From Candidatus Moranbacteria bacterium GW2011_GWF2_35_54 (GTDB taxonomy: Bacteria; Patescibacteriota; Minisyncoccia; Moranbacterales; UBA9337): a DNA stretch of 41,013 bases. The notes beneath the pieces are model-generated. The model was given only the letters and a program-made list of their open reading frames with translations, did not search any database and had not been told where the DNA came from. The stretch spans positions 1 to 41,013 of the forward strand of contig LBQR01000022.1 of assembly GCA_000990945.1 (NCBI GenBank), in the 5' to 3' direction. The translations under genes were made by a program, and so were the position numbers. The stretch's first letter is position 1, and each line of letters starts with the position of its first letter. Of the stretch, positions 1,230-40,046 are shown in pieces.

Positions 1230-1261
1230 TTAACATATTAACATTTTAGCACGTTAACATT
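1230..1261 (-). repeat. Octamer array TTARCAYN x4
   Basis: TTAACATA TTAACATT TTAGCACG TTAACATT, next to the FKBP start codon. Confidence 0.8.
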
Positions 1262-1342
1262 TTAATTTAATTATTTTTAAATTTGAAATTTGATATTTGT
1301 TTGGAAATTGTTGCTTGGAAATTGGTTATTCGCTTTGCGCAG

Positions 1343-1415
1343 TGGACCATGCCGGACTCGAACCGGCCACCTCTCCCATGCCATGGGAGCACTCTACCAG
1401 ATGAGCTAATGGCCC
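1343..1415 (-). tRNA. tRNA-Ala(GGC)
   Basis: Reverse complement GGGCCATTAGCTCA...CTCCC-ATGGCAT-GGGAG...GGTTCGAGTCC...ATGGTCC; cloverleaf stems pair; CCA not encoded. Confidence 0.93.
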
Positions 1416-1557
1416 AATAATAATCCCCTCTCCATCTTTGCCTGCCCCGTCAGATACTTTCTGACTGGGGTACTCAAGGGGGAGATGTCCAGCAGGACAG
1501 AGGGGGTTTCACACTACCTATCTATAATATAGGTTCAATATGTAAGAGTCAATATTT

Positions 1558-1718
1558 CCAAATGCGTAACTATTTATGCGAGTAATTTCTGTACTCAGAA
1601 ATTGCGTGGCAATCTAGTTTTAAAGTATATAATCCTGGATTGCCACGTCGGAGTACCGACTCGCAAAGACAAACCCTGGTCTATCTTTGGAGAGAACTGA
1701 ATAGTTACCCAAATGCGT
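1558..1718. repeat. Short inverted-repeat element flanked by a 10-bp direct repeat (CCAAATGCGT)
   Basis: CCAAATGCGT at 1558-1567 and 1709-1718; inner ends AACTATT/AATAGTT inverted; internal hairpins with TACT and AGTA loops. Confidence 0.6.
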
Positions 1719-1779
1719 CTTCTTATTTTATTAATAACATGCTAAAATAAAATCAATTAAAAAGATAACTTAAAAAAAT

Positions 1780-2355
1780 ATGCCTTTCGATTCAATTTGG
1801 AATTGGTTGATAGAAAATCATCCTGATATTTTTTGGTTTTCTATAATTCTTCTTCTTATTATTATCGCCGTTTGGAAAATATCTAAGTTCCATGACGAGT
1901 GCAAAAACTGTAGAGAAGTGTGTCATAATAAAACAGGAATAGCTAAAGATATTTCCAGGCTTAATGAAAAAATAAATACTATTTTAACAATTCTAACAGA
2001 AAAAGAAATAATAAAAAGCGATTTATTTTCATCGAATTCTCCTCTAAATTTAACGCCAAAAGGACACCACTTAATAAAAGAGATGGGCTGGGATAAGATA
2101 TTGGAAGATGAAAAAAGTCAAAGTGAGCTATTTGGAGCGTTGGATAAAATTAATCTAAAATCTAAGGCTGATGTGGAGAAATATTGTACAATATTATTGC
2201 ATGAATTAAATAGCAAACGAGATACGAATTTATTTACTCCAATAAAAAAATATTTATACGAAAATTCCAGTGTATCCGAAATGGACGCTATTTTTGCATG
2301 CTCTTTGCATTTAAGAAATAAATACTTAGAAAAAAGACCTGCTATAAAAGAGTAA
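1780..2355 (+). CDS. Hypothetical protein with N-terminal transmembrane helix
   Basis: ORF 191 aa; FWFSIILLLIIIAVW segment then soluble helical region. Confidence 0.6.
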   Translation: MPFDSIWNWLIENHPDIFWFSIILLLIIIAVWKISKFHDECKNCREVCHNKTGIAKDISRLNEKINTILTILTEKEIIKSDLFSSNSPLNLTPKGHHLIKEMGWDKILEDEKSQSELFGALDKINLKSKADVEKYCTILLHELNSKRDTNLFTPIKKYLYENSSVSEMDAIFACSLHLRNKYLEKRPAIKE

Positions 2356-2392
2356 TCTTGAAAACTATAATGATCCAACTTGCATTCAGAGC

Positions 2393-2420
2393 TGGACAAA
2401 TTTTTATTTTTGTCTATAAT
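2393..2420 (+). promoter_or_regulatory. Sigma70-like promoter upstream of tRNA-Gly
   Basis: TGGACA-16-TATAAT. Confidence 0.55.
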
Positions 2421-2435
2421 ACTAAAGGTATGCAT

Positions 2436-2528
2436 AAGCGGGCTTACCTCGCTGTAGTGAAACATAAGTGAGCTTGTCTCGTTTAAGTAGAATGTAGAGA
2501 AAGCGGGCTTTGCCTCGCCGTAGCGAAG
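2436..2528 (+). repeat. Three degenerate AAGYGRGCTT-containing units in the tRNA-Gly leader
   Basis: aagcgggcttacctcgctgtagtga (2436), aagtgagcttgtctcg (2466), aagcgggctttgcctcgccgtagcga (2501). Confidence 0.6.
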
Positions 2529-2533
2529 CGCAG

Positions 2534-2609
2534 GCGGGTGTCGTATAATGGCTTATTATATCAGCCTTCCAAGCTGAGGACGAGGGTTCGATTCCCTTCA
2601 CCCGCTCCA
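2534..2609 (+). tRNA. tRNA-Gly(TCC), CCA encoded
   Basis: GCGGGTG...TCAGC-CTTCCAA-GCTGA...GGTTCGATTCC...CACCCGC T CCA. Confidence 0.95.
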
Positions 2610-2613
2610 AGAA

Positions 2614-2644
2614 ATTAAAAACAGGCTCATTGCCTGTTTTTAAT
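2614..2644 (+). terminator. Intrinsic terminator after tRNA-Gly
   Basis: attaaaaacaggc-tcatt-gcctgtttttaat. Confidence 0.8.
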
Positions 2645-2701
2645 TTACGTTATAAAACTAAATTCAAACTTGCCTATCTTTCTTTAAAGATACTCTTTGA
2701 T

Positions 2702-4192
2702 ATGATAAACTACTTATATATGATTCTACTTAAAAGAATAAAACAAACGTTAAGCGGGGAAATTTTATTACTATCTTCCATCATCATTTGGGGAGCTTTT
2801 TTGAGATTATATTATCTGGGTGCGGACAGCTTATGGATAGACGAAGGATTTACGATTGCTCAAGTAGATGCAATTGGTAAAAATTTCCTGCCACTGCTTG
2901 ATTCTGGTGAGTACGTAACTAGAGACTTGCTCTTTCCATATCTGCTGGCAATCATAAAATATCTGACAGGTGCATCTATTGAAACTTATCGCCTAGTTTC
3001 TGCAACATTTGGAATACTATGCATTCCGCTGGCCTACAACATCGGAAAAAAAGTTTTTCAAAAAAATGTTGGCTTAATTTTTGCTTTTTTTATTTCTTTT
3101 TCTTATTGGCAAATTGCTTGGAGTCGACAGATAAGGGCTTATATAATGCTGGAATTTTTGGTTTTGCTGGCGATATTTTTTCTTATCAAATATCACCAAA
3201 CTCAAAAAAGGAAATTTTTATCCTTTCTCCTTATATCTATCGGCTTGGCGATAGCCACAAAAATTTCTGCAGTATTTCTTTTACCCGCTCTTCTCATTTA
3301 TTTCTTGGCTCAAAAAAATTACAAGATTTCTGCCATTTTTACTTTTGTTTTTATTATTTTAGGCTTTCTGGGATATTTTTATTTTAAACACAGCTTTTCA
3401 ATATCGCTAAATAATTACCTTACTTACTATCTGATTGGATATTTTTGGCTTAATTTGGGATTGCTTTTTCCACTGTCCATCGTAGGCGCTTACTGGACGA
3501 TTTATCGAGATAGATATTGGAGAAGTGTTCATCTTTTTCTTTTAAGTTTTTTCTTTTTAAACGTTTCTTTCTTTTCTTTTTTCTATTATGTTAATCAAAA
3601 AAGATATTTATTTATTCTTCTTCCAATTATCTTTCTTTATGCAGGCAGTCTTTTGTATTATTTAGCTGGAAAGAAAAAAAACCACATACTTATTACAGTT
3701 TTTTCTATTTCTCTTTTTGCCCTTGTCGATGTTTTTTCATTTAAAACATTACAAATAATTCCGCAAAAACAATTTATCCTAGAAGATTACACTCCCCAAC
3801 CAGATTTTCAATCGGCTTATAAATTTTTGCAAGAATCGCTCAAGCCGGAAGACTCACTAATTTCGCCCTATCCCTATATGGATAAAATATATCTAAACCA
3901 CCTATCTTACGCTTTGGCTATTTCTTATACGGGCAAAGAGGGCAACGAATCCATAGCAGAAAACAGACAAGAATATTATTCTGGTGCAGTTGAAATTTCT
4001 TCTATCGGTCGGATTGATTCGCTTAGAGCAAATGGGGATGTTTATGTCCTGCTTGATACGATGGCCGAGTCACGAGCTAACCAAAAAATAGTCCAATATG
4101 CTAGAGAATATTCCCCTTCTCAAACTATATCTTTTAGCGCTCTCTCTGGAGACGTAATCACTGTCTACCGCCTTCCTAGGCTCGAAGAATAG
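2702..4192 (+). CDS. GT39/PMT-like membrane glycosyltransferase
   Basis: RLYYLGADSLWIDEGFT, multiple TM segments; the ORF-track start at 2630 lies inside the tRNA terminator, so a start at 2702 or 2720 is preferred. Confidence 0.75.
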   Translation: MINYLYMILLKRIKQTLSGEILLLSSIIIWGAFLRLYYLGADSLWIDEGFTIAQVDAIGKNFLPLLDSGEYVTRDLLFPYLLAIIKYLTGASIETYRLVSATFGILCIPLAYNIGKKVFQKNVGLIFAFFISFSYWQIAWSRQIRAYIMLEFLVLLAIFFLIKYHQTQKRKFLSFLLISIGLAIATKISAVFLLPALLIYFLAQKNYKISAIFTFVFIILGFLGYFYFKHSFSISLNNYLTYYLIGYFWLNLGLLFPLSIVGAYWTIYRDRYWRSVHLFLLSFFFLNVSFFSFFYYVNQKRYLFILLPIIFLYAGSLLYYLAGKKKNHILITVFSISLFALVDVFSFKTLQIIPQKQFILEDYTPQPDFQSAYKFLQESLKPEDSLISPYPYMDKIYLNHLSYALAISYTGKEGNESIAENRQEYYSGAVEISSIGRIDSLRANGDVYVLLDTMAESRANQKIVQYAREYSPSQTISFSALSGDVITVYRLPRLEE

Positions 4193-4268
4193 TGGACTGT
4201 ATCTTCAAATAAGCATCAAGCACATCTTTAACCTAATATTTTTAATTTACTAAAATATTGATGTTGCT

Positions 4269-4300
4269 CATGCTAAAATGTTAACGTGCTAATATGCTAA
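4269..4300 (+). repeat. Octamer array NRTGYTAA x4
   Basis: CATGCTAA AATGTTAA CGTGCTAA TATGCTAA. Confidence 0.8.
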
Positions 4301-4332
4301 GATGATTTTGCCTTGACAAAATCATCTTTTTT
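4299..4332 (+). terminator. Intrinsic terminator
   Basis: aagatgattttg-ccttga-caaaatcatctttttt. Confidence 0.75.
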
Positions 4333-4340
4333 GTTATACT
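4313..4340 (+). promoter_or_regulatory. Promoter overlapping the terminator hairpin
   Basis: TTGACA (4313-4318) -16- TATACT (4335-4340). Confidence 0.5.
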
Positions 4341-4372
4341 TGGCAGTTAATTAAATAATGCATTAAAAGGCT

Positions 4373-4897
4373 TTGATAAGTCATAAATTTATGAGAGAAG
4401 CAGTAATTTCCCGACAGTTAAGCATTTATTTCATAGCCACCACATTATGCTTGGTTATAATTTCAACTTCCCTAAGCGAAGGGTTAATTAAAACAACTTA
4501 TGGTTACGGTTACGGCTATGGTTATGGAAATACCAAAACTGATGATAGTACTAAAAATAACACTATCCAGATAACGGAAACTGCCAGCGAAAAGAAGCCG
4601 TCCAAAAAGAAAGACAAAAAGGAAAAGAAACATTTAAAAATTTCACAAAAATCCGTAAAGAAAGGCGAAATATTAGTTCAATCAGGAAAAGGCTTTAAGA
4701 AAAATTCCAAGCTTAGACTTTATTTTTCCAAACCCGATGGAACTTTTTATCCTCCAGTAATTGTTAAGACTGACAGCAAAGGAAAATTCAGTGTAAAATA
4801 TTTAGCCACAAAACCGGCAGGAACCTATAAATGGTACGCAGTTGTGCCAGCTTCCGGCAAAAAGACAAAAATATCAAGTTATAAAATAGTAAGATAA
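4373..4897 (+). CDS. Secreted/surface protein with YG repeat, Lys-rich linker and C-terminal beta-sandwich-like domain
   Basis: Signal-like hydrophobic N-terminus, YGYGYGYGYG, then KKGEILVQSGKGFKKNSKLRLYFSKPDG...; TTG start at 4373 or ATG at 4391. Confidence 0.7.
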   Translation: MISHKFMREAVISRQLSIYFIATTLCLVIISTSLSEGLIKTTYGYGYGYGYGNTKTDDSTKNNTIQITETASEKKPSKKKDKKEKKHLKISQKSVKKGEILVQSGKGFKKNSKLRLYFSKPDGTFYPPVIVKTDSKGKFSVKYLATKPAGTYKWYAVVPASGKKTKISSYKIVR

Positions 4898-4930
4898 TGC
4901 ATCCGCTTATATCTATCAGCTAACTCAATT

Positions 4931-4959
4931 AAAAAATCTCCATTTTTGGAGATTTTTTA
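4931..4959 (+). terminator. Intrinsic terminator
   Basis: aaaaaatctcca-ttt-ttggagatttttt. Confidence 0.8.
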
Positions 4960-4999
4960 ATATTGGCGATAAAATATCAAACTGTGCTAATATTAATTT

Positions 5000-5272
5000 A
5001 TGGAAAACCTTTGGCAACAATTTAATATTAAAATTGCGATTCTAATATTTTTAGCATATTTCTTGATAGATGCCATGTATGCTGTTTACACCCTTTCTGT
5101 CGTTAAAAAGAAACCCCTCGTAGCATCCTCAATTGGTGCGCTGATGCATTTCCTCTTGGCCTTTGGGGTCATAAACTATGTTCAAAACTATCTTTACATC
5201 ATTCCCCTAGCCCTCGGCTCTTGGCTTGGAACATATTTCATAGTTTCGAGAGAAAAAAATAAAGAAAAATAG
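5000..5272 (+). CDS. Small multi-pass membrane protein, hypothetical
   Basis: ORF 90 aa, three hydrophobic helices. Confidence 0.65.
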   Translation: MENLWQQFNIKIAILIFLAYFLIDAMYAVYTLSVVKKKPLVASSIGALMHFLLAFGVINYVQNYLYIIPLALGSWLGTYFIVSREKNKEK

Positions 5273-5340
5273 CTTAAATTTTATCAAGCTATATTTTCAT
5301 CACCGATATCTTCATTACCAATAGGGAAAATCTGATTTTT

Positions 5341-5835
5341 ATGATAAAATATGAATATAAAAAATTAAAGAAAACTATGCTTTATATAAAAATTCTTTCT
5401 TATCTTTTTATCTTCTCTTTTTTTCCTTTTATATCAATTCCTGGTGGATGGACTAGCCTTTTCTTTTTTGCTCCATTTATATATTTACCTGGATTATTTT
5501 TGACAGCTTTTGTTTTAATAACATTCGAAAAAGTAAACAACGACATAGCTGCCAAAAAAATGCTTTTAAAAATGATAACGACATATATACTGGGATGTTT
5601 ATTGTTTGTTGATGGAGGTGATGGAAATTCTTATATTGGAATTGACGCTTTTGTAAACAGAGTAATTTTCCATAATTTTTCATCTGTTAATATAATAAGA
5701 GTTGTTCCAGAGTATCTTCACATTTTTGGACTTGCATCTTTTGGTTTACTTATTTATTTTATTATTTGGAACATCTCATTTATTCAAAAATTTAAAGTTA
5801 AAAATATAAAAATTCAGGACAGCAGCAATTTTTAA
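5341..5835 (+). CDS. Hypothetical integral membrane protein
   Basis: ORF 164 aa, multiple TM segments; terminator follows. Confidence 0.55.
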   Translation: MIKYEYKKLKKTMLYIKILSYLFIFSFFPFISIPGGWTSLFFFAPFIYLPGLFLTAFVLITFEKVNNDIAAKKMLLKMITTYILGCLLFVDGGDGNSYIGIDAFVNRVIFHNFSSVNIIRVVPEYLHIFGLASFGLLIYFIIWNISFIQKFKVKNIKIQDSSNF

Positions 5836-5852
5836 ATTAAAATTATATCAGC

Positions 5853-5886
5853 AAAAAAACTCTCCAGTAGAATAGAGAGTTTTTTG
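5853..5886 (+). terminator. Intrinsic terminator
   Basis: aaaaaaactctccagtagaatagagagttttttg. Confidence 0.7.
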
Positions 5887-5890
5887 TTTT

Positions 5891-6061
5891 TTAAACTATT
5901 GTAGATAATGCTTGATATTTAAATCTAATTTTAATATCAAAGTTAACCTTATTTATTTCTTCCAATAATTCCAAGGTAACTTTAACTGAAGGATTACTTG
6001 TATTTAAAAAAGAAATTCTTCCATTGTGTTTTTCATGCAAAGGCCTTAAAAATTCATCTGC
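5891..6061 (-). pseudogene. Possible gene remnant or very small ORF
   Basis: Open frame ADEFLRPLHEKHNGRISFLNTSNPSVKVTLELLEEINKVNFDIKIRFKYQALSTIV*; no upstream ATG, TAA just before it. Confidence 0.3.
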
Positions 6062-6192
6062 TTATTCATCATTTTCTAGCTATTGTATACATAATTTCGT
6101 TAAATATGTAATCAAAATGCATACATTTTTTATAAAATATGTATACATTTTGCAAAAAAATTAAAATAAATTGGAGAGCCTATAGAGAAACC

Positions 6193-7119
6193 TTAAATTT
6201 CTAAAAGCACCAAAGAAATAACATCTCGCGCATTTTTTATTTTACCCTGCTGGGCAAGTTCAGCGCCAAGTCTTATCCCTCGATAACTCAAGGGAATAGC
6301 CAACGTCTCTTTAAATGTTGAATCATCCAAAAATTCTTTTTTAACAATATCTAAGAAAGTTGAAGCTTCATTTTTTCGTTCAGAATAACCGATCATTTGC
6401 AAAATATAATAAGCAATATCATAATATTTTAATGACCACCCACTCCAGCCCGCATCAATAAGGATCAATCTATTATCAGAATGCTTACGAGCCATATGCC
6501 ACGGCACAATATCATGATGTTGGAATGCTTGATTTCGCAAATGTAATCCTGATCTAACTTTTTCTTCTAACGTTTTTATGTCAGATATTTCTAGTAGTCC
6601 ATGCTCTAATAAATATTTTGCATCTTTTTCAAATTTATCCAGAATATTTTTAACTCTTTTTTGAGTATCTTTTTTTAATTCAATCGGGATTTGTTCAAAC
6701 TCCATGCTTAGACAAAACCGCATAAATTTAATCATCTCTTGTAAATATTCTTTTAAAGGGACCATCTTTGTTTGGGGAGAAAAATCTTTTGCCAACCAAG
6801 TGGAATATTTTGTAATGTCTGGATAAATAAGCCTTTTGCCCGCTAACGTCGGGGTCAAGAATTCAAATCCAACATCTTTCCCATCGGCCATAGTTTTTAA
6901 GAAGAGTTGATTGTAAAATTCACGCTTATTCATCGCCACTCCATTTTCACTCTTGGCTTCCTTGATAAAAAAGTCTTTGCCATCAATATTTGCTGTATAG
7001 GTTAATAAATCAAACGTCTCCCTAATTATAATAGTTTCTTCATTTATTTCATTTTCTGGCATATAAATTATTTTTAATTTTAGTGTTTTCAGTATAACAA
7101 ACGAATTTACCAATAGCAA
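6193..7119 (-). CDS. Aminoglycoside phosphotransferase-like kinase family protein
   Basis: QHHDIVPWHMARKHSDNRLILIDAGWSGWSLKYYDIAYYI resembles APH/choline kinase catalytic and DxD-like loops; likely start at 7062 (MPENEINEET). Confidence 0.65.
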   Translation of the reverse strand: MLLVNSFVILKTLKLKIIYMPENEINEETIIIRETFDLLTYTANIDGKDFFIKEAKSENGVAMNKREFYNQLFLKTMADGKDVGFEFLTPTLAGKRLIYPDITKYSTWLAKDFSPQTKMVPLKEYLQEMIKFMRFCLSMEFEQIPIELKKDTQKRVKNILDKFEKDAKYLLEHGLLEISDIKTLEEKVRSGLHLRNQAFQHHDIVPWHMARKHSDNRLILIDAGWSGWSLKYYDIAYYILQMIGYSERKNEASTFLDIVKKEFLDDSTFKETLAIPLSYRGIRLGAELAQQGKIKNARDVISLVLLEI

Positions 7120-7260
7120 TTTTAATAAAAAATTAAATTTTCTTGTTTATTTAGCACTGCAAACTAATATTCCTATCAGATGGTTTTTACTAAAGACATT
7201 CTATCTTGAACTGTTCTTAAATTTATTATATAATTTAAACGTAAATTAATAAATGAAAAA

Positions 7261-7572
7261 ATGAAAAAAATAATTACGGCTTATCTAACTTTTATCCCTT
7301 ATACAGACTATTATACTCATGCATCATATTCCGATCTGCCTGCACCAAGTTTAACCGACATAATCATGAATGTTTTATCGTGGATTTCAATTATCTTGGG
7401 GGTGCCTTCATTTCTCTTACTTATACTGCTTAGTATCGTTTATTTTTTAAAAAATTCTGCGGGAAGAAATAACATAAAAAAAATTATGTTATATTGTCTT
7501 TACATTTTGACCGCAAGTCTTCTTATACATTTTATAGATACTACCTTTTTCACGAACTACAATTGTTTTTAA
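7261..7572 (+). CDS. Small membrane protein, hypothetical
   Basis: ORF 103 aa with two TM helices. Confidence 0.5.
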   Translation: MKKIITAYLTFIPYTDYYTHASYSDLPAPSLTDIIMNVLSWISIILGVPSFLLLILLSIVYFLKNSAGRNNIKKIMLYCLYILTASLLIHFIDTTFFTNYNCF

Positions 7573-7663
7573 ATTTGTCTAATAATGAAAGAACAGGACT
7601 AAGGATGTGAATGGACCGACTTAGATGAATCAATTATTCTCGAACAAGCGGAAATAACAAATC

Positions 7664-8194
7664 ATGAATAAAAAAGATATATGCATTTTGCCTGGGACTA
7701 TTCAATACGCCAAAAATTATGGCTATGATGGATTGGATATTTGGATGGACAAAAAAATAACTATTCCCAATGCCAAAGTTTTTATTGGCCACAGCCTGGG
7801 GGCAAGTTTTATTTTAAATTCAGATATCAATCGCAACTGTAAATTTATATTCATCAATCCTCTTGTCAGAAAAAGACCTTTTCTTTTTCACTTTATAAAC
7901 TGGCTAAGATTTCTTATTTTTGAAGGATTTGCAGTTAAAAAAGCTGTGCCCGTTAAATATTGGTGGCACACATTTAAGCAAGTTTTACGCTTACTAAAAG
8001 TTGACGTTCTTAGGCAGATAAAAAAAATCCCCCCAGAAAATATCACCATAATTCGAGGAAAAAATGATAATTATTTTTGCGATAAAAAAAGCGTAGAAAT
8101 ATTAAAATCTAACCAAATCAAATTTATCGAAATAGAAGCTGGTCATGATTGGAATGAAAATATCGCGGGAATGGTTAAAAACCTAGTTAATTAA
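7664..8194 (+). CDS. Alpha/beta hydrolase (RBBP9/YdeN-like)
   Basis: VFIGHSLGASFIL nucleophile elbow, ITIIRGKNDNYF, IEAGHDWNE. Confidence 0.78.
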   Translation: MNKKDICILPGTIQYAKNYGYDGLDIWMDKKITIPNAKVFIGHSLGASFILNSDINRNCKFIFINPLVRKRPFLFHFINWLRFLIFEGFAVKKAVPVKYWWHTFKQVLRLLKVDVLRQIKKIPPENITIIRGKNDNYFCDKKSVEILKSNQIKFIEIEAGHDWNENIAGMVKNLVN

Positions 8195-8261
8195 GTAAAC
8201 CCCCTCCCAACCTCCCCCTTGAGTACAAGAGGGAAGGGATGTATTTGATTCTATTTTTAAC

Positions 8262-8293
8262 AAAAAACTCTTCTTTTTGCAGAAGAGTTTTTT
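8262..8293. terminator. Intrinsic terminator between convergent genes
   Basis: aaaaaactcttct-ttttgc-agaagagtttttt. Confidence 0.75.
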
Positions 8294-8298
8294 ATTAG

Positions 8299-8346
8299 AT
8301 GTTTTATGTTCTATGATATATGGTCCATGTTTCATGCTCCATGTTT

Positions 8347-8347
<1 letters not shown>
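8299..8347. repeat. Heptamer array, 7 units
   Basis: ATGTTTT ATGTTCT ATGATAT ATGGTCC ATGTTTC ATGCTCC ATGTTTC, meeting the gyrB stop codon. Confidence 0.8.
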
Positions 8348-10395
<2,048 letters not shown>

Positions 10396-10530
10396 TTACG
10401 CATCACAAAATTAAGATACGCAAATCTTATTAGAAAATTTATTCTTTCACTCGGCCGATGATTATCAGCCAACCTCCTTAACTTATTCATTCTAGCACAT
10501 ATTTTTAGATTTTAAAAGAGCGCAAGCATT

Positions 10531-10562
10531 TTAACACGTTAGCATATTAACATATTAACAAC
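10531..10562 (-). repeat. Octamer array upstream of gyrB
   Basis: TTAACACG TTAGCATA TTAACATA TTAACAAC. Confidence 0.8.
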
Positions 10563-10600
10563 TTTCTAAAATTAATTATTTAATTATCATGATATGTTTA

Positions 10601-10624
10601 AATGTTAATATGCTAACATGCTAA
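10601..10624 (+). repeat. Octamer array upstream of the CAP gene promoter
   Basis: AATGTTAA TATGCTAA CATGCTAA. Confidence 0.8.
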
Positions 10625-10631
10625 AATGAAT

Positions 10632-10660
10632 TTGCTTTTTGTCTTATTCTATGCTATAAT
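10632..10660 (+). promoter_or_regulatory. Sigma70-like promoter
   Basis: TTGCTT-17-TATAAT. Confidence 0.65.
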
Positions 10661-10769: not shown

Positions 10770-11576
10770 ATGAAAAACACAACATTAAAACTAAATACTT
10801 TAAAATCAAGCCTTCTAATAAGCGTTTTTGTCTTTATTTCTTTTTATTATTCATCCACAACCTATGCCAAAGAAATAAACTCTCAAAATATTATCGAACT
10901 CATCAATTATAGTCGTTTGAGTAATAGCTTAAACCCTCTTGCAGAAAGCTCCATTCTTTCTGAAGTGGCGCAATCAAAAGTTTCTGATATGGCCAAAAAC
11001 CACTATTTTGCCCATACTTCCCCCGCTGGAGTTACTCCTTGGCATTGGTTTGATAAAAATAATTATTCTTACAAATATGCCGGAGAAAATTTAGCTATTA
11101 ATTACGAGTCTGCCGAAGAAGAGCATGGGGCCTGGATGAAAAGCATCGCGCACAAAGAAAATATTTTAAATTCTAATTTTAAAGAAATAGGTGTTGCTAC
11201 TTCCAAGGGAATAATCAATGGCAAAAAATCAAATATTACGGTAACAGTTTTTGGCACACCCGAAGAAAATATTTTAGCGACTGCTGGAAAATCATCTGTG
11301 GCAAACAAAAATAGTTACATTTTAGGAGTTCAGTCTCAAGGTGTCAAACCGCTACCTCTGAAAAAGGGTTCTGCGTACCAATTAAATATCAGTCCTAAAT
11401 TTACCGGATCAATCAAAAAACAATCCCATAATATAGTTTGGACTGTCGCCTTGATTGCGATTTTAATTGTTTTAAAAGATATCGTTTTAAGAACCATTAA
11501 CGCCCAAACTTTTCAACATAGGCATTCTGTAGTAAATTTAATTTTATTTATCATGATTTATGCTATCTTTTTCTGA
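10770..11576 (+). CDS. CAP/SCP-domain (YkwD-like) extracellular protein with C-terminal membrane segment
   Basis: INYSRLSNSLNPLAESSILSEVAQSKVSDMAKNHYFAHTSPAG, AGENLAINYES, IAHKENILNSNFKEIGVA. Confidence 0.88.
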   Translation: MKNTTLKLNTLKSSLLISVFVFISFYYSSTTYAKEINSQNIIELINYSRLSNSLNPLAESSILSEVAQSKVSDMAKNHYFAHTSPAGVTPWHWFDKNNYSYKYAGENLAINYESAEEEHGAWMKSIAHKENILNSNFKEIGVATSKGIINGKKSNITVTVFGTPEENILATAGKSSVANKNSYILGVQSQGVKPLPLKKGSAYQLNISPKFTGSIKKQSHNIVWTVALIAILIVLKDIVLRTINAQTFQHRHSVVNLILFIMIYAIFF

Positions 11577-12344
11577 AATTTTAAATAACTCATAAAATAT
11601 GATAGCTGCACTAACTGCCACATTCAAAGATTCTATACTGGATGTGGTTTTTATATTTATGAATTTATCTGCTTCTTTTTCTAGAATTACATCCACGCCC
11701 TGACTTTCACTTCCCAAAATAATGCAACGCTTTTTCTTTATTTCAAAGATACCATCAAGACTCTCGCCTTTTTGGACATTGGTGGTGTAAATAGTAAAAT
11801 TATTTTCTCTTATTTTTCTAAAAATCTCGCTCTCTTTATCAAAGACGATATTTAATTTAAATATCGCATCTTTGGCAGCTTGAATAGTTTTTAAGTTATA
11901 GATATCTGCACATTTTTCATCTAGGACAATATTTTTTAAACCAAAAGCTAGCGCACTCCTCAAAATCGTTCCCAAATTTCCTGGATCATTAATGCCATTA
12001 AGATAAATAATGTCATTGTTCCAATCTAATGCCATTTCCTTTTTTTCATAAACGGCCACAACCCCCTGCGAAGAGTCCAATGAAGTTAGATTTTTTTTAA
12101 TATTTTCACTGACCAAAAAAACTCTCTTTTCATCGCCCAACATGTCTGCTAATACGACTTTATTTTTATCCAAAAAATCTCTTGTCAGAAAAAGTTCTTT
12201 AAAATAAATGTTGCTAGCAAAGGCATCCTTGATAATTTTCCAATTTTCTACTACAAATTCTCCTCGCAATTGACGATATTTTTTAAGTTTTAATTTGTTT
12301 AATTCTTTAATTTTTTTATTATCTTTGCTTTCAATTATAATCAT
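11544..12344 (-). CDS. RNA methyltransferase, SpoU/TrmH family
   Basis: LNGINDPGNLGTILRSALAFG, IILGSESQGV, IESLNVAVSAAIIFYEL. Confidence 0.94.
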   Translation of the reverse strand: MIIIESKDNKKIKELNKLKLKKYRQLRGEFVVENWKIIKDAFASNIYFKELFLTRDFLDKNKVVLADMLGDEKRVFLVSENIKKNLTSLDSSQGVVAVYEKKEMALDWNNDIIYLNGINDPGNLGTILRSALAFGLKNIVLDEKCADIYNLKTIQAAKDAIFKLNIVFDKESEIFRKIRENNFTIYTTNVQKGESLDGIFEIKKKRCIILGSESQGVDVILEKEADKFINIKTTSSIESLNVAVSAAIIFYELFKISEKDSINHDK

Positions 12345-12353
12345 ATGAGCATT

Positions 12354-12385
12354 TTAGCATGTTAGCATATTAACACGTTAGCATA
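12354..12385 (-). repeat. Octamer array upstream of SpoU/TrmH gene
   Basis: TTAGCATG TTAGCATA TTAACACG TTAGCATA. Confidence 0.8.
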
Positions 12386-12428
12386 TTAACTTCACTGCAA
12401 ATATACAAATCTACAAATTCCTAGAGGC

Positions 12429-18959: not shown

Positions 18960-19145
18960 GATACTAAATCAACTTAAATACTGCTATAATGTCATTCCGA
19001 GTGAAGTGAGTCCGACCCCAAGGAGGATGAACGAAATCGAGGAATCTAAGCCCAGATCTTTCGACTTCATTTCTCCGCCAGCTGGCGGATCAATTCCGCT
19101 CAAGATGACAAATGCTGTAGGATAGATTTATTTGATTTGGTATAA
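18960..19145 (-). mobile_element. MITE-like dispersed element, copy A
   Basis: Inverted relative to copies at 22880 and 28014; ends with ATACT/TGGTAT-type imperfect inverted repeats. Confidence 0.6.
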
Positions 19146-28196: not shown

Positions 28197-28243
28197 ATAT
28201 AAATTCTTTACTGCTAACCGCGCCACCTTTCTCCTGCGTAAAG

Positions 28244-28329
28244 CGGAAAGGGCGAGATTCGAACTCGCGGTGAGTTGCCCCACACACGCTTTCCAAGCGT
28301 GCGCACTAGACCAACTATGCGACCTTTCC
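28244..28329 (-). tRNA. tRNA-Ser(GGA)
   Basis: Reverse complement GGAAAGGTCGCATAGTTGGTCTAGTGCG-CACGC-TTGGAAA-GCGTG-...-GAGTTCGAATCTC-GCCCTTTCC; long variable arm. Confidence 0.94.
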
Positions 28330-28465: not shown

Positions 28466-28497
28466 TTAACATTTTAGCACGCTAACATATTAACAAT
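28466..28497 (-). repeat. Octamer array
   Basis: TTAACATT TTAGCACG CTAACATA TTAACAAT. Confidence 0.78.
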
Positions 28498-30638: not shown

Positions 30639-30685
30639 AGTGCACCTCCCTTCTTATTTATTTTATTATACACACGTTATCTTTA

Positions 30686-31330: not shown

Positions 31331-31352
31331 TGTAACACAGCCTCATTTAAAA

Positions 31353-31928
31353 TCAATTAAATAGCTCACCAATTATCTTATCTCTATTTATCTGGCTTTT
31401 TGAGGAATAAGTTATTATTTTTATTCTATCATCACTTATTTTTTCTTCTGTTTCTCTAATAACTTTAACAACTTCACCTTGTTTTAATTTATCAATCTTA
31501 TTCAATATCACGATAAAATCAATTTCTTCCGCTTTTAGTAAATCCACCATTTCCAAATCAAAATCCTGTATTCCCGCTTTGGCATCCACAATTAAGACAA
31601 CTTTTTTATGTTTTATTTCTGAATAAGTCAAATACCAAATTATCATTTTTCTAATTTTTTCTCTTTGTTTTCCCGGAGTTTTGGCATAACCATATCCAGG
31701 CAAATCCACAAAATAAACTTTTTGATCAATAAGAAAAAAATTTATTTGCTGGGTTCTTCCTGGCGTTGAGCTTGAACGAGCCAAGCTTTTATTTCCCACC
31801 AAAGAATTCAACAGTGTAGATTTCCCCACGTTGGAGCGGCCCACAAAGGCAATTTGGGCTTTGGTGTCATTAATAATATCATTTGTTCCTACTATTCCCC
31901 TCACAAATTGGGCATTGCGTATATTCAT
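31353..31928 (-). CDS. engB: Ribosome biogenesis GTPase YsxC/EngB
   Basis: IAFVGRSNVGKSTLLNSLVG, STPGRTQQINFF, FVDLPGYGYA, ILNKIDKL. Confidence 0.97.
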   Translation of the reverse strand: MNIRNAQFVRGIVGTNDIINDTKAQIAFVGRSNVGKSTLLNSLVGNKSLARSSSTPGRTQQINFFLIDQKVYFVDLPGYGYAKTPGKQREKIRKMIIWYLTYSEIKHKKVVLIVDAKAGIQDFDLEMVDLLKAEEIDFIVILNKIDKLKQGEVVKVIRETEEKISDDRIKIITYSSKSQINRDKIIGELFN

Positions 31929-31929
31929 A

Positions 31930-31964
31930 AGCTTAGTTATTAGGTTTTAGTTTACAGTTTTTAG
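31930..31964 (-). repeat. Heptamer array next to engB start
   Basis: AGCTTAG TTATTAG GTTTTAG TTTACAG TTTTTAG. Confidence 0.6.
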
Positions 31965-31978
31965 ATATATCTTACATA

Positions 31979-32018
31979 TTAGCACGTTAGTATATTAACA
32001 TTTCAGCATTAAAACATT
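31979..32018 (-). repeat. Octamer array upstream of engB
   Basis: TTAGCACG TTAGTATA TTAACATT TCAGCATT AAAACATT. Confidence 0.75.
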
Positions 32019-32030
32019 TTAAATCAGTCA

Positions 32031-32173
32031 GCGTCTTCGCGATGCATAAATTATCTCCAAAGATGATTTTTGCCGCGGCGATCCAGTATTTAATTTGACC
32101 TTAAGCTATTTGAATTTAATTACTGGACTGCCACGCAAATTCTGAGTACAGAATTTACTCGCAGAGACGAAGA
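32031..32173 (+). repeat. Dispersed element related (inverted) to 1568-1708
   Basis: GCGATCCAGTATT...ACTGCCACGCAAATTCTGAGTACAGAATTTACTCGCA matches the reverse complement of the 1584-1660 region. Confidence 0.65.
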
Positions 32174-32264
32174 AAATAATTTATCATTCCCAAAATCCTA
32201 AATTTTCATATTCCCCTGCTTTCAATTCGTAATTTCGTAAAAATTCGTACTTCGTAGAGAATCC

Positions 32265-34955: not shown

Positions 34956-35031
34956 ATATCTTAAGTATAATCATATTTCACAAATAATACAAAAAGTCTT
35001 ATGTAAAGATATTTTTTGTTTTCATATTAGC

Positions 35032-35238
35032 CTAGGCACGCACCTCGATTCCGAAATTGATAGAGCCCAGGCTCTGAAATGCGCCTGCTCTATCGGCAGG
35101 AATTGAGAGGAGAAATTCAGACCGTTTACTTAAATCTTTAACTGCAATCCCCCATTTTTCCGCTGCGTTTAGCGCTGAGCGCAAATCTCCTCTACTCTTG
35201 AATTTCAAAGTGCATTTTTTCCTATCATCTTTTACCAT
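35032..35238 (-). CDS. Small hypothetical protein (68 aa)
   Basis: Strong SD GGGAGGG upstream of ATG. Confidence 0.6.
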   Translation of the reverse strand: MVKDDRKKCTLKFKSRGDLRSALNAAEKWGIAVKDLSKRSEFLLSIPADRAGAFQSLGSINFGIEVRA

Positions 35239-35286
35239 TTTTCAGACCCTCCCAATTCATAGGTTAAGGTTTGCAAAAAATATTTT

Positions 35287-35565
35287 TTATATCTCCAACC
35301 ATTCTGCCTCAAATTTTCCAGCCATACCTCTATATGGGTGACAGAATCTTTCAAACATATTATCTGGAATCACGATTGTCCAAGGAACTACATCATTTTC
35401 TTTTTTCACATCTACATATAAAATTTCCCATGGAATTCTCCAAATGGTATCCACCCAGTGAAGTGCGTTCATATGAGTATCTCCATCTTCAAACTGAAGA
35501 ATGCAGATACCTTTGGGTTTTCCCAAGTACTCCCATTGTAATTCTGTGATGTTATTTTGCATCAT
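35287..35565 (-). CDS. Small hypothetical protein (92 aa)
   Basis: Strong SD GAGGAGG just upstream of ATGATG; soluble Trp-rich composition. Confidence 0.65.
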   Translation of the reverse strand: MMQNNITELQWEYLGKPKGICILQFEDGDTHMNALHWVDTIWRIPWEILYVDVKKENDVVPWTIVIPDNMFERFCHPYRGMAGKFEAEWLEI

Positions 35566-35675
35566 CTTCCTCCTCTATACACTTAAAATACCAACAGTTA
35601 ACTACACAATTAATTAAATTTTATCACTCTCAATCTATCATTCTTTTAAAAACTCCGCAATGAAACATCGTCATA

Positions 35676-35723
35676 TTAACATGAAAACATTAAAATAATT
35701 TAACAATATAGCCATTTAACAAT
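35676..35723 (-). repeat. Degenerate octamer array variant
   Basis: TTAACATG AAAACATT AAAATAAT TTAACAAT ATAGCCAT TTAACAAT. Confidence 0.5.
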
Positions 35724-36527
35724 TTATTTTTCCAATTCAATCCCCTCAATCACCACATCCTGAGTCGGATGATCTTTTTCATTAATCCGCACTTTTTCTA
35801 TTTTCTCTACTACATCCATACCCTCAATCACTTCTCCGAAATTAGTATGCTTGCCATCCAGATGCGGAGTTGAGTCAGCAGTTACAATAAAAAATTGCGA
35901 TCCATTGGTATCTTTACCGCTATTAGCCATCGCTAGCGAGCCTTTAATTAATTTATGCTGATTAACTTCATCTCTAAATGCATAACCTGGACCACCCACT
36001 CTATCGTCATCCCAATTTCCGTCTTTGGAGTTAGGATCGCCCCCTTGGATCATAAATCCGCTAATTACGCGATGAAATTTTGTTTCATTATAAAAACCGC
36101 TCTCGGCTAATTTAATAAAATTTCCTACTGCCATTGGAGCTTCGGATGGATAAAATGTAACTTTTATATCTCCCTGATTAGTTTTAATAGTGGCTTTAGT
36201 GTATTTATTAGTATAATTTAATAACTCTTTTTCTATATCTGTCTTTTCTGTTACGACGGGAGCGGTTTCTTTTTTTAGTTTTTCCTCTTTTAATCGCATC
36301 TCGTAATCTGCTTGGTTAACTGCTTGCTCCAATTGTTGCATTTCACTGTCTCCCTTGGCTGCTTGAGAACCTTTTGCATAATCTTCTTTTACATTTATCT
36401 TGTTTAGAGGATTAACTTTTCCATTATTTCCGTTTAAATCGTCTTTTGGAGTAATAAAATTACATCCGCCAAGAAAGAAAGGGACTGAGGTAATTACTAA
36501 AAATAATTTTATCTTTTCATTTAACAT
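35724..36527 (-). CDS. Cyclophilin-type peptidyl-prolyl isomerase, lipoprotein
   Basis: Lipobox-like FFLGGC; ATIKTNQGDIKVTFYPSEAPMAVGNFIKLAESGFYNETKFHRVISGFMIQGGDP. Confidence 0.95.
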   Translation of the reverse strand: MLNEKIKLFLVITSVPFFLGGCNFITPKDDLNGNNGKVNPLNKINVKEDYAKGSQAAKGDSEMQQLEQAVNQADYEMRLKEEKLKKETAPVVTEKTDIEKELLNYTNKYTKATIKTNQGDIKVTFYPSEAPMAVGNFIKLAESGFYNETKFHRVISGFMIQGGDPNSKDGNWDDDRVGGPGYAFRDEVNQHKLIKGSLAMANSGKDTNGSQFFIVTADSTPHLDGKHTNFGEVIEGMDVVEKIEKVRINEKDHPTQDVVIEGIELEK

Positions 36528-36533
36528 ATTTGT

Positions 36534-36974
36534 TCAAATAACACTTATTTTTCTACTTTTTTCATCTACTATTTCAAAATTTATCCAAATTGAATACTCG
36601 GGCAAAATATCTTTTATTTTTTCCGGCCATTCTACCAAAACAATATTTTGTTTATCCTTAATTATTTCCTCCCAGCCTAAATCTAAAATATCTTTGCTTC
36701 CTACTCGATAAGTATCGATATGATAAATACTTTTTAAATTTAAAACATTCTTTTTTATCGCGTATTGTTTCATCACCACAAAAGTCGGACTAGTTAACGC
36801 CCCTTCTGCGCCAAGTTCTCTCAAAAATCCTTGAGAAAAAGTAGTTTTTCCTGCGCCCAAATCACCCTTTAAGCAAATAACCTCTCCACCTTTGCAATTA
36901 CTTGCCATTTTCTTTCCCAAATCCCTGGTTTCATCGGCACTATTCGTAATCATTTCTCTTAAGTCATTTAGCAT
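36534..36974 (-). CDS. tsaE: tRNA threonylcarbamoyladenosine biosynthesis ATPase TsaE
   Basis: LKGDLGAGKTTFSQGFLRELG, TSPTFVVMKQY, IYHIDTYRV, VLVEWPEK. Confidence 0.95.
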   Translation of the reverse strand: MLNDLREMITNSADETRDLGKKMASNCKGGEVICLKGDLGAGKTTFSQGFLRELGAEGALTSPTFVVMKQYAIKKNVLNLKSIYHIDTYRVGSKDILDLGWEEIIKDKQNIVLVEWPEKIKDILPEYSIWINFEIVDEKSRKISVI

Positions 36975-37007
36975 ATTAGTATTTTAGCACGTTAATATAT
37001 TAACATT
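36968..37007 (-). repeat. Octamer array overlapping tsaE start codon
   Basis: TTAGCATA TTAGTATT TTAGCACG TTAATATA TTAACATT. Confidence 0.78.
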
Positions 37008-37026
37008 AAAGCAAACATCTGACGTG

Positions 37027-37191
37027 TGTCATCTCGACTAAATAAATTTCTGTACTCGGAAGTTTATGCATGGAGAGATCTCAAACTTAATAATTTAGCA
37101 TACATTAAGAGATTCCTCCACTTCCAAATCTTTGAGTACAAAGATTTGTCCGGCCCGCTTCGACAAGCTAGCGAGGCGAGTCGGAATGACA
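37027..37191. repeat. Dispersed inverted-repeat element (TGTCATCTCGA...TCGGAATGACA)
   Basis: Two internal hairpins: TAAATTTCTG-TACT-CGGAAGTTTA and CAAATCTTTG-AGTA-CAAAGATTTG. Confidence 0.7.
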
Positions 37192-37203
37192 GCCCCACTT
37201 TAT

Positions 37204-37239
37204 AAACTTTAAGAACTTTACAAACTTTAAAAACTTTCA
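37204..37239. repeat. Nonamer array x4
   Basis: AAACTTTAA GAACTTTAC AAACTTTAA AAACTTTCA. Confidence 0.75.
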
Positions 37240-38778
37240 TCATTCATTCTTAAACCGATATTGTATACTCTCGGCAATATGCATTGGTAAAATTTCTTTC
37301 TCCTGAGATAAATCCGCGATAGTGCGAGCTATTTTAATTAGGCGATAATAAGAACGAGCGCTCAACCCCATTTTAATAACCGCGCTTTTCAATAATACCA
37401 AAGAATCACCCGTCAAAGGACAAAAAGTTTTTATTTCATTAGATGACATTTCACTATTTGTTATTTTACTTGAATCTTTAAATCTTTCTTTTTGAATTTG
37501 CCGGGCTATTTCTATTCTAGCCCTTATTTCAGCGCTGCTTTCCCCAGAATTTTCTTCTTGAAGCTTATCAAATTTTAACCGAGGAACTTCAATTTGCAAA
37601 TCTATTCTGTCTAAAATTGGTCCGGATATTTTCCGCTGATAATTTACTATTTGAGAAGGTGAGCAAGAGCACATTTTTTCAGGATCAGTTGCATTACCGC
37701 ACGGACATGGATTCATGGCGGCTACCAAAGTAAAACAGGCTGGAAAACTAAGAGTGCCTTTGGCTCGAGAAACTGTCACTACTCCATCTTCCAAAGGTTG
37801 GCGCAAATTTTCCATTACATTTTTAGGAAATTCTGCAAATTCGTCTAAAAATAAAACTCCACGGTGAGACAAACTTATCTCTCCCGGCTTAGGATAGCTC
37901 CCTCCTCCTACGAGAGAAATAGCACTAGCGCTATGATGAGGCGAGCGAAATGGCCGCTGGGTTATCAGAGGATTGCTCTTGGGCAAATTACCTGAAATTG
38001 AAAATATTTTTGTAATTTCTAGCGCTTCAGGCAGGGTTAACTCGGGCAAAATTGAAGCCATAGCTTTAGCTAAGAGAGTTTTGCCACTTCCGGGAGGACC
38101 ATTCATTATGATATTGTGTCCGCCGGCTGCCGCAATTTCTAAAGCTCGCTTAGCATGCTCTTGCCCCTTGATATGAGACATATCTATTAAAAATTCACTT
38201 TTTTTGAATAAGGCTTCTTGATCAATTTGAGGAAAAGGTTCAATAATTTTCTCTCCAATTAAATGAGCACATAAATCATGTAAAGTACCAATAGGAATTA
38301 CGTCTATCCCATCAACCACGCTGGCTTCTCTGGCGTTTTCTAGCGGGACATAAATTTGGGTGAAATTTTTTCTTTTAGCCATAAGTGCTATAGGTAAAAC
38401 TCCTTGCACGCAGCGAGCACTTCCATCCAATGATAGTTCTCCGATAAAAATTTTATCTTTAAAGTTAAAATTTATTTGACCAGTAGCTAAAAGAAATCCC
38501 AGCGCAATCGGAATATCATAAATAGGACTATTTTTAGGCAAATCAGCTGGTGCCAAATTAACGGTTATCCTACCACATTGATGCGGAGGCTTAAATCCAC
38601 TATTTTTTATGGCACTGCTTACCCTATCTCTAGATTCTTTAATGGAAGTGTCTGGAAGCCCCACAATAGTAAAATTATGCAAGCCCTGACTGAGAGTATC
38701 CACTTCAACTTCTACTATTTCGCTATCCAGTCCGATAGTCGCGGCTGAAAAAACTTTTGAAGACATTTTAATTTTCAA
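37240..38778 (-). CDS. YifB/ComM-type Mg-chelatase-like AAA+ ATPase
   Basis: GLPDTSIKESRDRVSSAIKNSGF, GPPGSGKTLLAKAMASILP, RPFRSPHHSASAISLVGGG, CPCGN. Confidence 0.96.
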   Translation of the reverse strand: MKIKMSSKVFSAATIGLDSEIVEVEVDTLSQGLHNFTIVGLPDTSIKESRDRVSSAIKNSGFKPPHQCGRITVNLAPADLPKNSPIYDIPIALGFLLATGQINFNFKDKIFIGELSLDGSARCVQGVLPIALMAKRKNFTQIYVPLENAREASVVDGIDVIPIGTLHDLCAHLIGEKIIEPFPQIDQEALFKKSEFLIDMSHIKGQEHAKRALEIAAAGGHNIIMNGPPGSGKTLLAKAMASILPELTLPEALEITKIFSISGNLPKSNPLITQRPFRSPHHSASAISLVGGGSYPKPGEISLSHRGVLFLDEFAEFPKNVMENLRQPLEDGVVTVSRAKGTLSFPACFTLVAAMNPCPCGNATDPEKMCSCSPSQIVNYQRKISGPILDRIDLQIEVPRLKFDKLQEENSGESSAEIRARIEIARQIQKERFKDSSKITNSEMSSNEIKTFCPLTGDSLVLLKSAVIKMGLSARSYYRLIKIARTIADLSQEKEILPMHIAESIQYRFKNE

Positions 38779-38850
38779 ATATTACACGCCTCTAAATATT
38801 AACTTAATTAAGCAATTAATTGTTACTTTTGTTTTAAATCTAGAGCTACC

Positions 38851-38885
38851 ACAAATCTACAAATCTGTTACAAATCTACAAATCT
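38851..38885. repeat. Octamer repeat ACAAATCT x4 (2+2)
   Basis: ACAAATCT ACAAATCT GTT ACAAATCT ACAAATCT. Confidence 0.85.
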
Positions 38886-39053
38886 CGCAGGAAATAAGTT
38901 CTTTTCACATTTGTAAATTTGTAGTTGATTTGCCTGTCTCGCTCTGGCTTGCCAAGACGGGTGGATTCGTGGGAGAAAAGCTAGAGTTATAATCAGAAAC
39001 CCAATTAATGCCTGGAGTAAGTCAAAATATTAATGTGCGCAACACCTGCTTAT

Positions 39054-39470
39054 TTAAGAATTACTTTTAAAACTTTTCATTATAATTATTATAGCACCAA
39101 TTGTGATAAAAATATCGGCCAGATTAAAAACGGAAAAGAAATTCAAGTCAATAAAATCTATTACGCACCCATAATTATATCGATCAATAAGATTAGCCAC
39201 AGCTCCGCCTAAGATAAAAACAATTCCAATTTTATTTAGGACAAAATTTTCAAATTTTATTTTCTCCAAAAGATAAAGCAACGCTAATAAAAAAATAACA
39301 GCTACGATAAAATAAAAAAACCAACTGGGGAATAGAAAACCGAAAGATATTCCTGGATTACAAATATAAAATCCGTCATTATGACGGATTAAATATTTAG
39401 ACAATTGGTCGCCTACTGCTAGAAAAGAAATTAAAAAAATAAAATTGTATTTTTTGATTATTTTTTTCAT
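39054..39470 (-). CDS. lspA: Lipoprotein signal peptidase
   Basis: GDQLSKYLIR, GGAVANLIDRYNYGCVIDFIDL, VFNLADIFITIG. Confidence 0.94.
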   Translation of the reverse strand: MKKIIKKYNFIFLISFLAVGDQLSKYLIRHNDGFYICNPGISFGFLFPSWFFYFIVAVIFLLALLYLLEKIKFENFVLNKIGIVFILGGAVANLIDRYNYGCVIDFIDLNFFSVFNLADIFITIGAIIIIMKSFKSNS

Positions 39471-39536
39471 TCTCTTATTTTTTCTATTCGAGTTATCGGG
39501 GTGTTATTCGTATCATTAGAGTCGCATTACGGAAGT

Positions 39537-39896
39537 TTATTTACCAGCGCATTTCATACATTTTTCAGCTGATGGGTTAGCTTCCAATCTTTCGGGAGAG
39601 ATATCTACTCCGCATTCTTCGCAAGCTCCATAAGTTCCATTTTTTATTTTTTCTAAAGCATTGTTGATTTCCTTCAACTGTTCTTCTAAATTGCTCTCCA
39701 AAGCGACGTTATCCACATATTCCTCAACCTCAGAAGCATTATCTTCTCTGTCACTGCCTATTTCTTCATGCTTTATTTCATAATCCCCGTTATCAGAAGT
39801 TGGATTAGCTATTCGGCTAAGTTCTTCTTTCAATTTATTTTTTTGTTCAATTAAAATCCCTTCAAATTTTTTAAGATCTTTTTCATTTAATGCCAT
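39537..39896 (-). CDS. TraR/DksA-type C4 zinc finger protein
   Basis: ALEKIKNGTYGACEECGVDISPERLEANPSAEKCMKCA. Confidence 0.92.
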   Translation of the reverse strand: MALNEKDLKKFEGILIEQKNKLKEELSRIANPTSDNGDYEIKHEEIGSDREDNASEVEEYVDNVALESNLEEQLKEINNALEKIKNGTYGACEECGVDISPERLEANPSAEKCMKCAGK

Positions 39897-40006
39897 ATTT
39901 TTTTATAATAACACTTAATCCATACGGATAAATTAAGGCTATGTCTGTTTACTGCTTATATATCTATATTATCAATTTAACCTGAAGATGTCTAGAGTCA
40001 GTCATT

Positions 40007-40046
40007 TTAGCATTTTAACATATTAGCACGTTAACAATTTAACAAA
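40007..40046 (-). repeat. Octamer array, continuing as looser period-8 sequence to about 40108
   Basis: TTAGCATT TTAACATA TTAGCACG TTAACAAT TTAACAAA. Confidence 0.78.

Follow-up and report, generated by a model that had tools for sequence, protein, structure and literature searches.

The window analysed here is a 41,013-nucleotide stretch of contig LBQR01000022.1 from Candidatus Moranbacteria bacterium GW2011_GWF2_35_54, an ultra-small Patescibacteria bacterium of the Moranbacteria type whose genome (labelled G000) comprises 1.22 Mb in 76 contigs at 35% GC. Its intergenic regions carry tandem arrays of a degenerate octamer, TTARCAYN, which reads NRTGYTAA on the other strand, here called sense. 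The arrays neighbour genes for an FKBP, gyrB, SpoU, an engB-type GTPase, tsaE and a DksA/TraR protein, all identified with Pfam, as well as a tRNA-Ser gene and the gap between gyrB and a CAP-domain gene (Table 1). The nine main sites listed in the initial annotation are all present in 8-nt register, and two are longer than described: 10601-10624 begins at 10593, and 12354-12385 spans 12346-12393. Two sites described as weaker did not hold up in the same way; 633-664 belongs to another octamer family, and 35676-35723 is only a partial match. Two-unit matches with at most two mismatches number 45 in the window versus 7.0 ± 2.7 in shuffled sequence. Rfam models run on the window returned only three tRNAs at the gathering threshold and no structured RNA family matching the arrays.

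Table 1. Octamer arrays in the window and their gene contexts
Feature	Position	Strand of sense unit	Context
Four-unit array	1230..1261	-	Ends 1 nt before the start codon of the FKBP gene (722-1228, -)
Four-unit array	4269..4300	+	Promoter-like TTGACA-16-TATACT begins 12 nt later; gene 4373/4391-4897 (+)
Four-unit left arm of inverted pair	10531..10562	-	Divergent gyrB/CAP-domain gap; reads toward gyrB (8347-10380, -)
Four-unit right arm, partner of 10531..10562	10593..10624	+	30-nt loop between the arms; TTGCTT-17-TATAAT 7 nt on; gene 10770-11576 (+)
Six-unit array	12346..12393	-	Ends 1 nt before the start codon of the SpoU methyltransferase gene (11544-12344, -)
Four-unit array	28466..28497	-	Upstream of tRNA-Ser (28243-28329, -); TTGCTC-17-TATTAT 15 nt after the array
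Four-unit array	31979..32010	-	50 nt upstream of the engB/YihA-type GTPase gene (31353-31928, -)
Five-unit array	36968..37007	-	Overlaps the start codon of tsaE (36534-36974, -)
Five-unit array	40007..40046	-	110 nt upstream of the DksA/TraR zinc-finger gene (39537-39896, -)
Other octamer family, TTAACGNN; not degenerate TTARCAYN	633..664	not assigned	Units TTAACGCA TTAACGAG CTAACGGA

Octamer arrays are abundant and intergenic and show no copy kinship

Arrays were defined as at least three TTARCAYN octamers in strict 8-nt register with no more than one mismatch per unit, and the reversed pattern, Markov sequence and ten permuted consensuses served as controls. Genome-wide counts for G000 cover 918 kb (∼75% of the genome), taken as stretches, in which crude gene calling from codon usage gave 961 genes and 82% coding sequence and ARAGORN located the tRNA genes. 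This sequence contains 100 arrays, compared with 0 for the reversed pattern, 0–2 in Markov sequence and 0–13 for the permuted consensuses, and 99 of the 100 are intergenic despite the high coverage by genes. Over the whole genome, three-unit matches number 274 versus 0 for the reversed pattern. The arrays are thus short (8-nt), contiguous, in-register direct repeats at many intergenic loci, as are the repeats of the cyanobacterial STRR (short tandemly repeated repetitive) and TAACTGA types, with a unit of 8 rather than 7 nt. The genome-wide scan proposed in the initial annotation confirms both the enrichment over controls and the near-absence from genes, and its description of a polar, intergenic repeat in strict register, dispersed in many copies and distinct from a simple microsatellite, is borne out.

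The sense unit combines five near-invariant positions with three that vary. The fixed T, G, T, A and A are conserved at 97.5, 97, 99, 93.5 and 96%, respectively, and the variable positions are themselves more restricted than TTARCAYN implies. Y is C in 46% and T in 53% of units; N is A or T in 40% each, C in 16% and G in 3%; R is A in 80%, G in 12% (nearly always as CGTG), T in 8% (mostly in the unit on the loop side of the inverted pairs described below) and C in 0.5%. The gene-side end of the array is NATGATT.

The N base is the same in neighbouring units less often than after permutation of the units (z −3.6 and −4.5 with two nulls), and recent slippage is contradicted by units that are less alike than chance. 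Identical three-unit strings occur 29 times between arrays, against 27.4 ± 7.9 expected for independent draws, and four-unit strings once, against 0.9. No recent copies are detectable among the G000 arrays by shared unit strings, and recent transposition or gene conversion between arrays was rejected because such strings are not in excess.

Array polarity follows the gene border

Among the 95 arrays with both neighbours known, 79 read NRTGYTAA into the 5′ end of a gene and 16 into a 3′ end; the 79 comprise 77 tabulated arrays plus L034:3857 and L048:2613, reassigned by hand because they overlap the start of their own gene. Fifteen of the 3′-facing arrays lie in tandem gaps and one in a convergent gap, and 12 of these 16 are within 19 nt of a stop codon or tRNA end or overlap it. 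The rule, taken from the window, that arrays are always sense to the downstream gene holds throughout the window and fails genome-wide. Polarity follows the gene border, not transcription; that arrays read into a gene border is the better rule, and the first rule describes a strong tendency.

Positions relative to the border vary. Eight arrays stop 1 nt before an ATG, some overlap the start codon, and others adjoin tRNA genes on either side or come after stop codons. In divergent gaps, thirteen are at least 55 nt from the gene; these precede promoter-like sites and so are probably outside both mRNAs. One single role in starting transcription or in translation can hardly account for such varied placement, which suits an element that fills whichever slot adjoins the first functional base.

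A promoter-upstream element or activator site for RNA polymerase would explain why the best −35-like hexamer, scored by consensus matches only, begins 7–19 nt past the array in 20 of the 39 arrays with at least 55 nt to the gene. Many arrays, however, stand at a start codon or gene 3′ end with no promoter after them, and in G001, a congener with a median protein identity of 78%, the gap orthologous to that at window position 4192 retains the promoter-like TTGACA region and is missing the 4269..4300 array. Of the readings considered here, this is the least likely. A translation start/stop module is scarcely more probable. The sense unit holds ATG/GTG and TAA and its complement TAA/TAG, so that an array would provide stops in all frames of both strands together with a series of start codons of which the last is the real ATG. 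The frequencies at R fall in the same order as bacterial start codons, Y preserves TAR on the opposite strand, eight arrays end 1 nt before the ATG, and a translational role has been proposed for TAACTGA by MacGregor (PMC4679880). This reading does not account for arrays beside tRNA genes or for others that are probably outside mRNAs; at R, G goes with a preceding C, a link not expected from codon logic, and TTG is found mainly in the loop-side unit. Among the options raised in the initial annotation, repeated protein binding sites give the best fit, whereas neither an UP element nor a translation leader suits, as a general role, arrays found at ATGs, tRNAs, stop codons and divergent gaps.

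A pattern scan also turned up octamer arrays with the TTARCAY core in Bacteroidota and at other loci outside Patescibacteria; these too adjoin gene borders, with the opposite polarity (64 versus 14, a count based on crude gene calls and mostly on a CACATTNN-like unit). In many Bacteroidota (L158, L160, L178, L210, L254 and others), CACATTNN-like octamer arrays adjoin start and stop codons, again with polarity opposite to that of the patescibacterial arrays. Genes with common repeated C-terminal coding segments occur at L066 6612, L058 5649, L059 1042, L038 2257 and L077 2052, with octamer arrays near several of their ends. A repeated ORF-like stretch after some arrays (MTYSHQLV...) was considered as a mobile gene and rejected, as it is the antisense of repeated protein C-termini.

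Arrays form the arms of inverted pairs

Copies at 3′ ends, an inverted-pair architecture and evidence for insertion were not part of the initial annotation. Arrays are carried by 8 of 57 genomes searched (G000 and its relatives), and a strict hairpin pattern is found in 8 of 384 genomes of the class, belonging to several families, with 0 in the reversed control. In five relatives (G033, G044, G056, G009 and G011) the basic unit is stop-TCAT-[TTARCAYN]n-loop-[NRTGYTAA]n-ATGA-start. The gaps that hold it are mostly 44–170 nt, and it often fills them entirely, leaving 0–10 nt between its ends and the flanking stop and start codons. Across several genomes there are 43 candidate inverted pairs, an arrangement shared with the hairpin-forming STRRs. 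In G000, an inverted partner lies in the gap on the inner side of 26 of the 100 arrays and on the outer side of 4.

The pairs suggest intercistronic RNA hairpins, in which an imperfect stem of the transcribed arms would stabilise mRNA, attenuate transcription or couple translation, as proposed for cyanobacterial STRRs. In the relatives, 22 of 24 pairs are in tandem gaps, many with stop and start codons a few nucleotides away, and intergenic gaps with arrays fold far better than shuffles (mean z −3.1, compared with −0.04 for coding sequence). Gaps without arrays, however, fold equally well (mean z −2.9), terminators contributing to these values. With arm registers aligned from the outer and the inner end, the variable positions are no more alike between the two arms of one element than between arms from different elements (0.45 versus 0.52 ± 0.04 for R/Y; 0.25 versus 0.34 ± 0.04 for N), and A·C mismatches (35) are about as frequent as G·U pairs (39). 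Selection for an RNA stem is therefore unsupported by the arm comparison, the variable positions not being complementary. About three quarters of the G000 arrays have no partner in the gap, and arrays are also present ahead of promoter-like sites and at the edges of tRNA genes. We consider RNA hairpins an improbable explanation.

The element appears to be gained between genes and shows high turnover between congeners

The junction between secD and secF measures at most 12 nt, with some overlaps, in G000, G012, G015, G028, G050 and G372; in G033 it is 78 nt and consists of the octamer hairpin. The same slot holds other repeats elsewhere: a GC-richer dispersed repeat in G044 and G038, a hairpin of another 7–8-nt family in G020, a TTTAGAC run in G056 and a further hairpin in G398. 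The repeat of G044 and G038 (L321, L324) is a dispersed repeat like ATTGCCACGTCGCTACGCTCCTCGCAATGACA. Between priA and def, a 44-nt octamer element in G033 corresponds to 5–13 nt in G015, G020, G028, G372 and G398. Because most relatives have only 0–13 nt at these two junctions where G033 has an element, the comparison of gaps argues that the element is an insertion gained between genes.

Turnover is also evident between the congeners. At orthologous gaps an array is present in both G000 and G001 in 11 cases, in G000 only in 11 and in G001 only in 8; the G001 gap orthologous to that of 12346..12393 is among those without an array. Some array gaps match, in the ortholog, a different inverted repeat of ∼7-nt words (e.g., L060).

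Several word families coexist, TTARCAYN being the most conspicuous. In G000 intergenic DNA with the arrays masked, and in G001 intergenic DNA, autocorrelation peaks at lags 7, 8 and 14–16, whereas coding sequence has only the 3-nt period and shuffles lack the peaks. Further degenerate 7–8-nt families in the intergenic DNA of the two species (e.g., in the gap at L060 2492) include GATTTAN, GATGACT, AATTCNTA, TTAACGNN and TTYGCATN, some of them as inverted arms, and an orthologous gap can hold one family in place of another. When consensus patterns were guessed for several of these, few or no perfect three-unit copies resulted, only TTAACGNN and TTYGCATN being prominent, in G001; the TTAACGNN family has 11 intergenic three-unit copies there, with 0 in coding sequence and 0 in the reversed control. 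Inside octamer arrays, between YTAA and GYTAA, sits the 16-nt palindrome TCCGCCAGCTGGCGGA, as does a longer, nested form of it (L035 16983, L037 6403, L049 10397, L055 3848, L077 2029 and others). The palindrome is also nested within an unrelated dispersed repeat (window positions 19073 and 22935).

Insertions at otherwise empty junctions, differing repeat types in one slot, high turnover between the congeners and the presence of the unrelated TCCGCCAGCTGGCGGA palindrome within several arrays are features expected of selfish or neutral dispersed repeats. Such repeats, whether REP (repetitive extragenic palindromic)/REPIN, MITE (miniature inverted-repeat transposable element) or foldback-like, would have no host function and would insert where gene and promoter are unharmed. 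Y1 transposases (Y1_Tnp) are encoded by 7 of 8 array-bearing genomes and 26 of 49 other relatives, which is not discriminating; the same applies to reverse transcriptases (RVT_1; 7 of 8 versus 23 of 49). Against a selfish origin, no pair of arrays has copy kinship beyond chance, variation is limited to three of the eight positions, unlike the neutral decay of inactive copies, and no octamer pair flanks the three Y1 transposase genes read in G000. Selfish or neutral repeats are a serious rival, although on balance we regard them as unlikely.

Octamers as putative repeated recognition sites

We tentatively favour, at a little short of an even chance, the reading that the arrays are the arms of a dispersed intergenic STRR-type element whose consensus is held by octamer recognition sites of a putative binder. 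Set beside the directly observed position, polarity, pairing, presence or absence at orthologous gaps and strict consensus with free positions, the proposal runs as follows. The full element would be an inverted pair, [TTARCAYN]n-loop-[NRTGYTAA]n, bounded on the outside by TCAT...ATGA and gained as a ∼45–90 bp insertion between the last functional base of one gene (stop codon, tRNA end or terminator) and the first of the next (−35 box or start codon). Insertion into such a slot would make the arms point into the gene borders. Most G000 arrays are now single arms, or arms with other repeats between them. Each octamer may be the site for one copy of a putative nucleic-acid-binding protein stacked every 8 bp, probably recognised as DNA, and the arrays would serve as architectural or insulating marks of gene junctions. 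DNA rather than RNA is proposed because, in divergent gaps, arrays precede promoter-like sites, and because they adjoin tRNA genes at either end. Seven arrays kept at matching distance in G001 show the expected signature, with agreement of 88–96% at fixed positions and only 33% at Y and N. Near-invariant positions combined with free ones, neighbouring units less alike than chance, the lack of kinship and arms that do not match suggest that repeated recognition sites fit better than an RNA stem, slippage or recent transposition.

Several observations weigh against this proposal. For the most obvious class of binder, the ribbon-helix-helix proteins, no match to RHH_1 (PF01402), the only family of that class searched, was found in any of the eight array-bearing genomes. 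Several 7–8-nt families share the same intergenic DNA; one binder for each would be uneconomical and a common generative process simpler. Arrays stand at varying distances from the promoter or start codon. The occurrence of an array in only one species at many orthologous gaps means that individual sites are not indispensable. Finally, the comparison of the seven arrays with their G001 counterparts is conditioned on both copies matching the consensus.

A common generative process has a form of its own, in which a cellular process other than ordinary transposition would write junction spacers as inverted runs of a degenerate 7–8-nt word. Each array would then be an independent draw, with several words per genome, and a putative 8-bp-stacking protein or templated repeat-adding enzyme would make the arrays, read them or both. 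We give this possibility little weight.

Relation to known repeats

The closest parallel to the arrays is TAACTGA of marine Beggiatoaceae. MacGregor (2015; PMC4679880) described 169 sets of this repeat in the orange Guaymas Maribeggiatoa genome, mostly directed toward a start codon and with the largest class ending 1 nt before it, reported copies in cyanobacteria and five Bacteroidetes, and suggested a binding protein. Both repeats have a short unit, 2–6 tandem copies, more than 100 sets per genome, and an intergenic location. Sets of either kind mostly point toward a nearby start codon and most commonly end 1 nt before it; they have little Shine-Dalgarno character and provide stops in all frames. 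In both, a reverse set occasionally comes directly after a stop codon, and the distribution over distant phyla, including Bacteroidetes, is patchy (PMC4679880). TAACTGA is 7 nt and nearly invariant, whereas the unit described here has 8 nt and three free positions, forms inverted pairs, permits comparison of empty and filled sites, and differs in sequence and host phylum.

In filamentous cyanobacteria, STRRs are usually repeats of 7 bp that form hairpins and whose function is unknown (PMC2670836), and in the P6b stem of the Nostoc trnL intron degenerate heptamers of the classes TDNGATT and NNTGAGT have repeatedly replaced one another (PMC4476775). The likeness lies in degenerate tandem units serving as hairpin arms and in the exchange of motif class with retention of architecture; those units are 7 nt, and pairing is structurally important in the trnL intron whereas arm complementarity is not maintained here. 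NRTGYTAA is not identical to TAACTGA, TDNGATT or NNTGAGT (PMC4679880, PMC4476775), and the difference in unit sequence suggests a separate family of the same kind.

Boxes of 8 bp in contiguous arrangement are likewise found in the met boxes of MetJ. Contiguous asymmetric 7–8-bp boxes, direct and inverted and bound box by box by small dimers, make up the omega heptads of pSM19035 parS, where full activation of the ParA ATPase needs at least four contiguous boxes (PMC9499535). The omega and MetJ sites are a plasmid centromere or single operators, as opposed to ∼100 chromosomal sites in G000, and RHH_1 was not detected in the array-bearing genomes. REP and REPIN sequences are palindromes without internal tandem units, and their copies are related. 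They resemble the present elements as small inverted intergenic repeats in many copies with patchy distribution (PMC3116915). Descent from common copies, as among REPs and REPINs, is not apparent in the octamer arrays, which share unit strings at chance level.

Literature searches centred on Patescibacteria (candidate phyla radiation) found no account of these repeats. On comparison of units and architecture, we take the arrays to be a new family of the STRR/TAACTGA kind, 8 nt long and degenerate, in Patescibacteria. Short degenerate tandem repeats at gene borders are known in cyanobacteria and giant sulfur bacteria, where neither function nor origin is agreed. The patescibacterial data narrow the options: the element appears as a gained insertion, the arrays are not copies of one another, their arms show no co-variation, and it is the gene border that sets polarity. 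An old question thereby becomes testable, namely whether a protein reads the 8-bp word in tandem and how new arrays originate.

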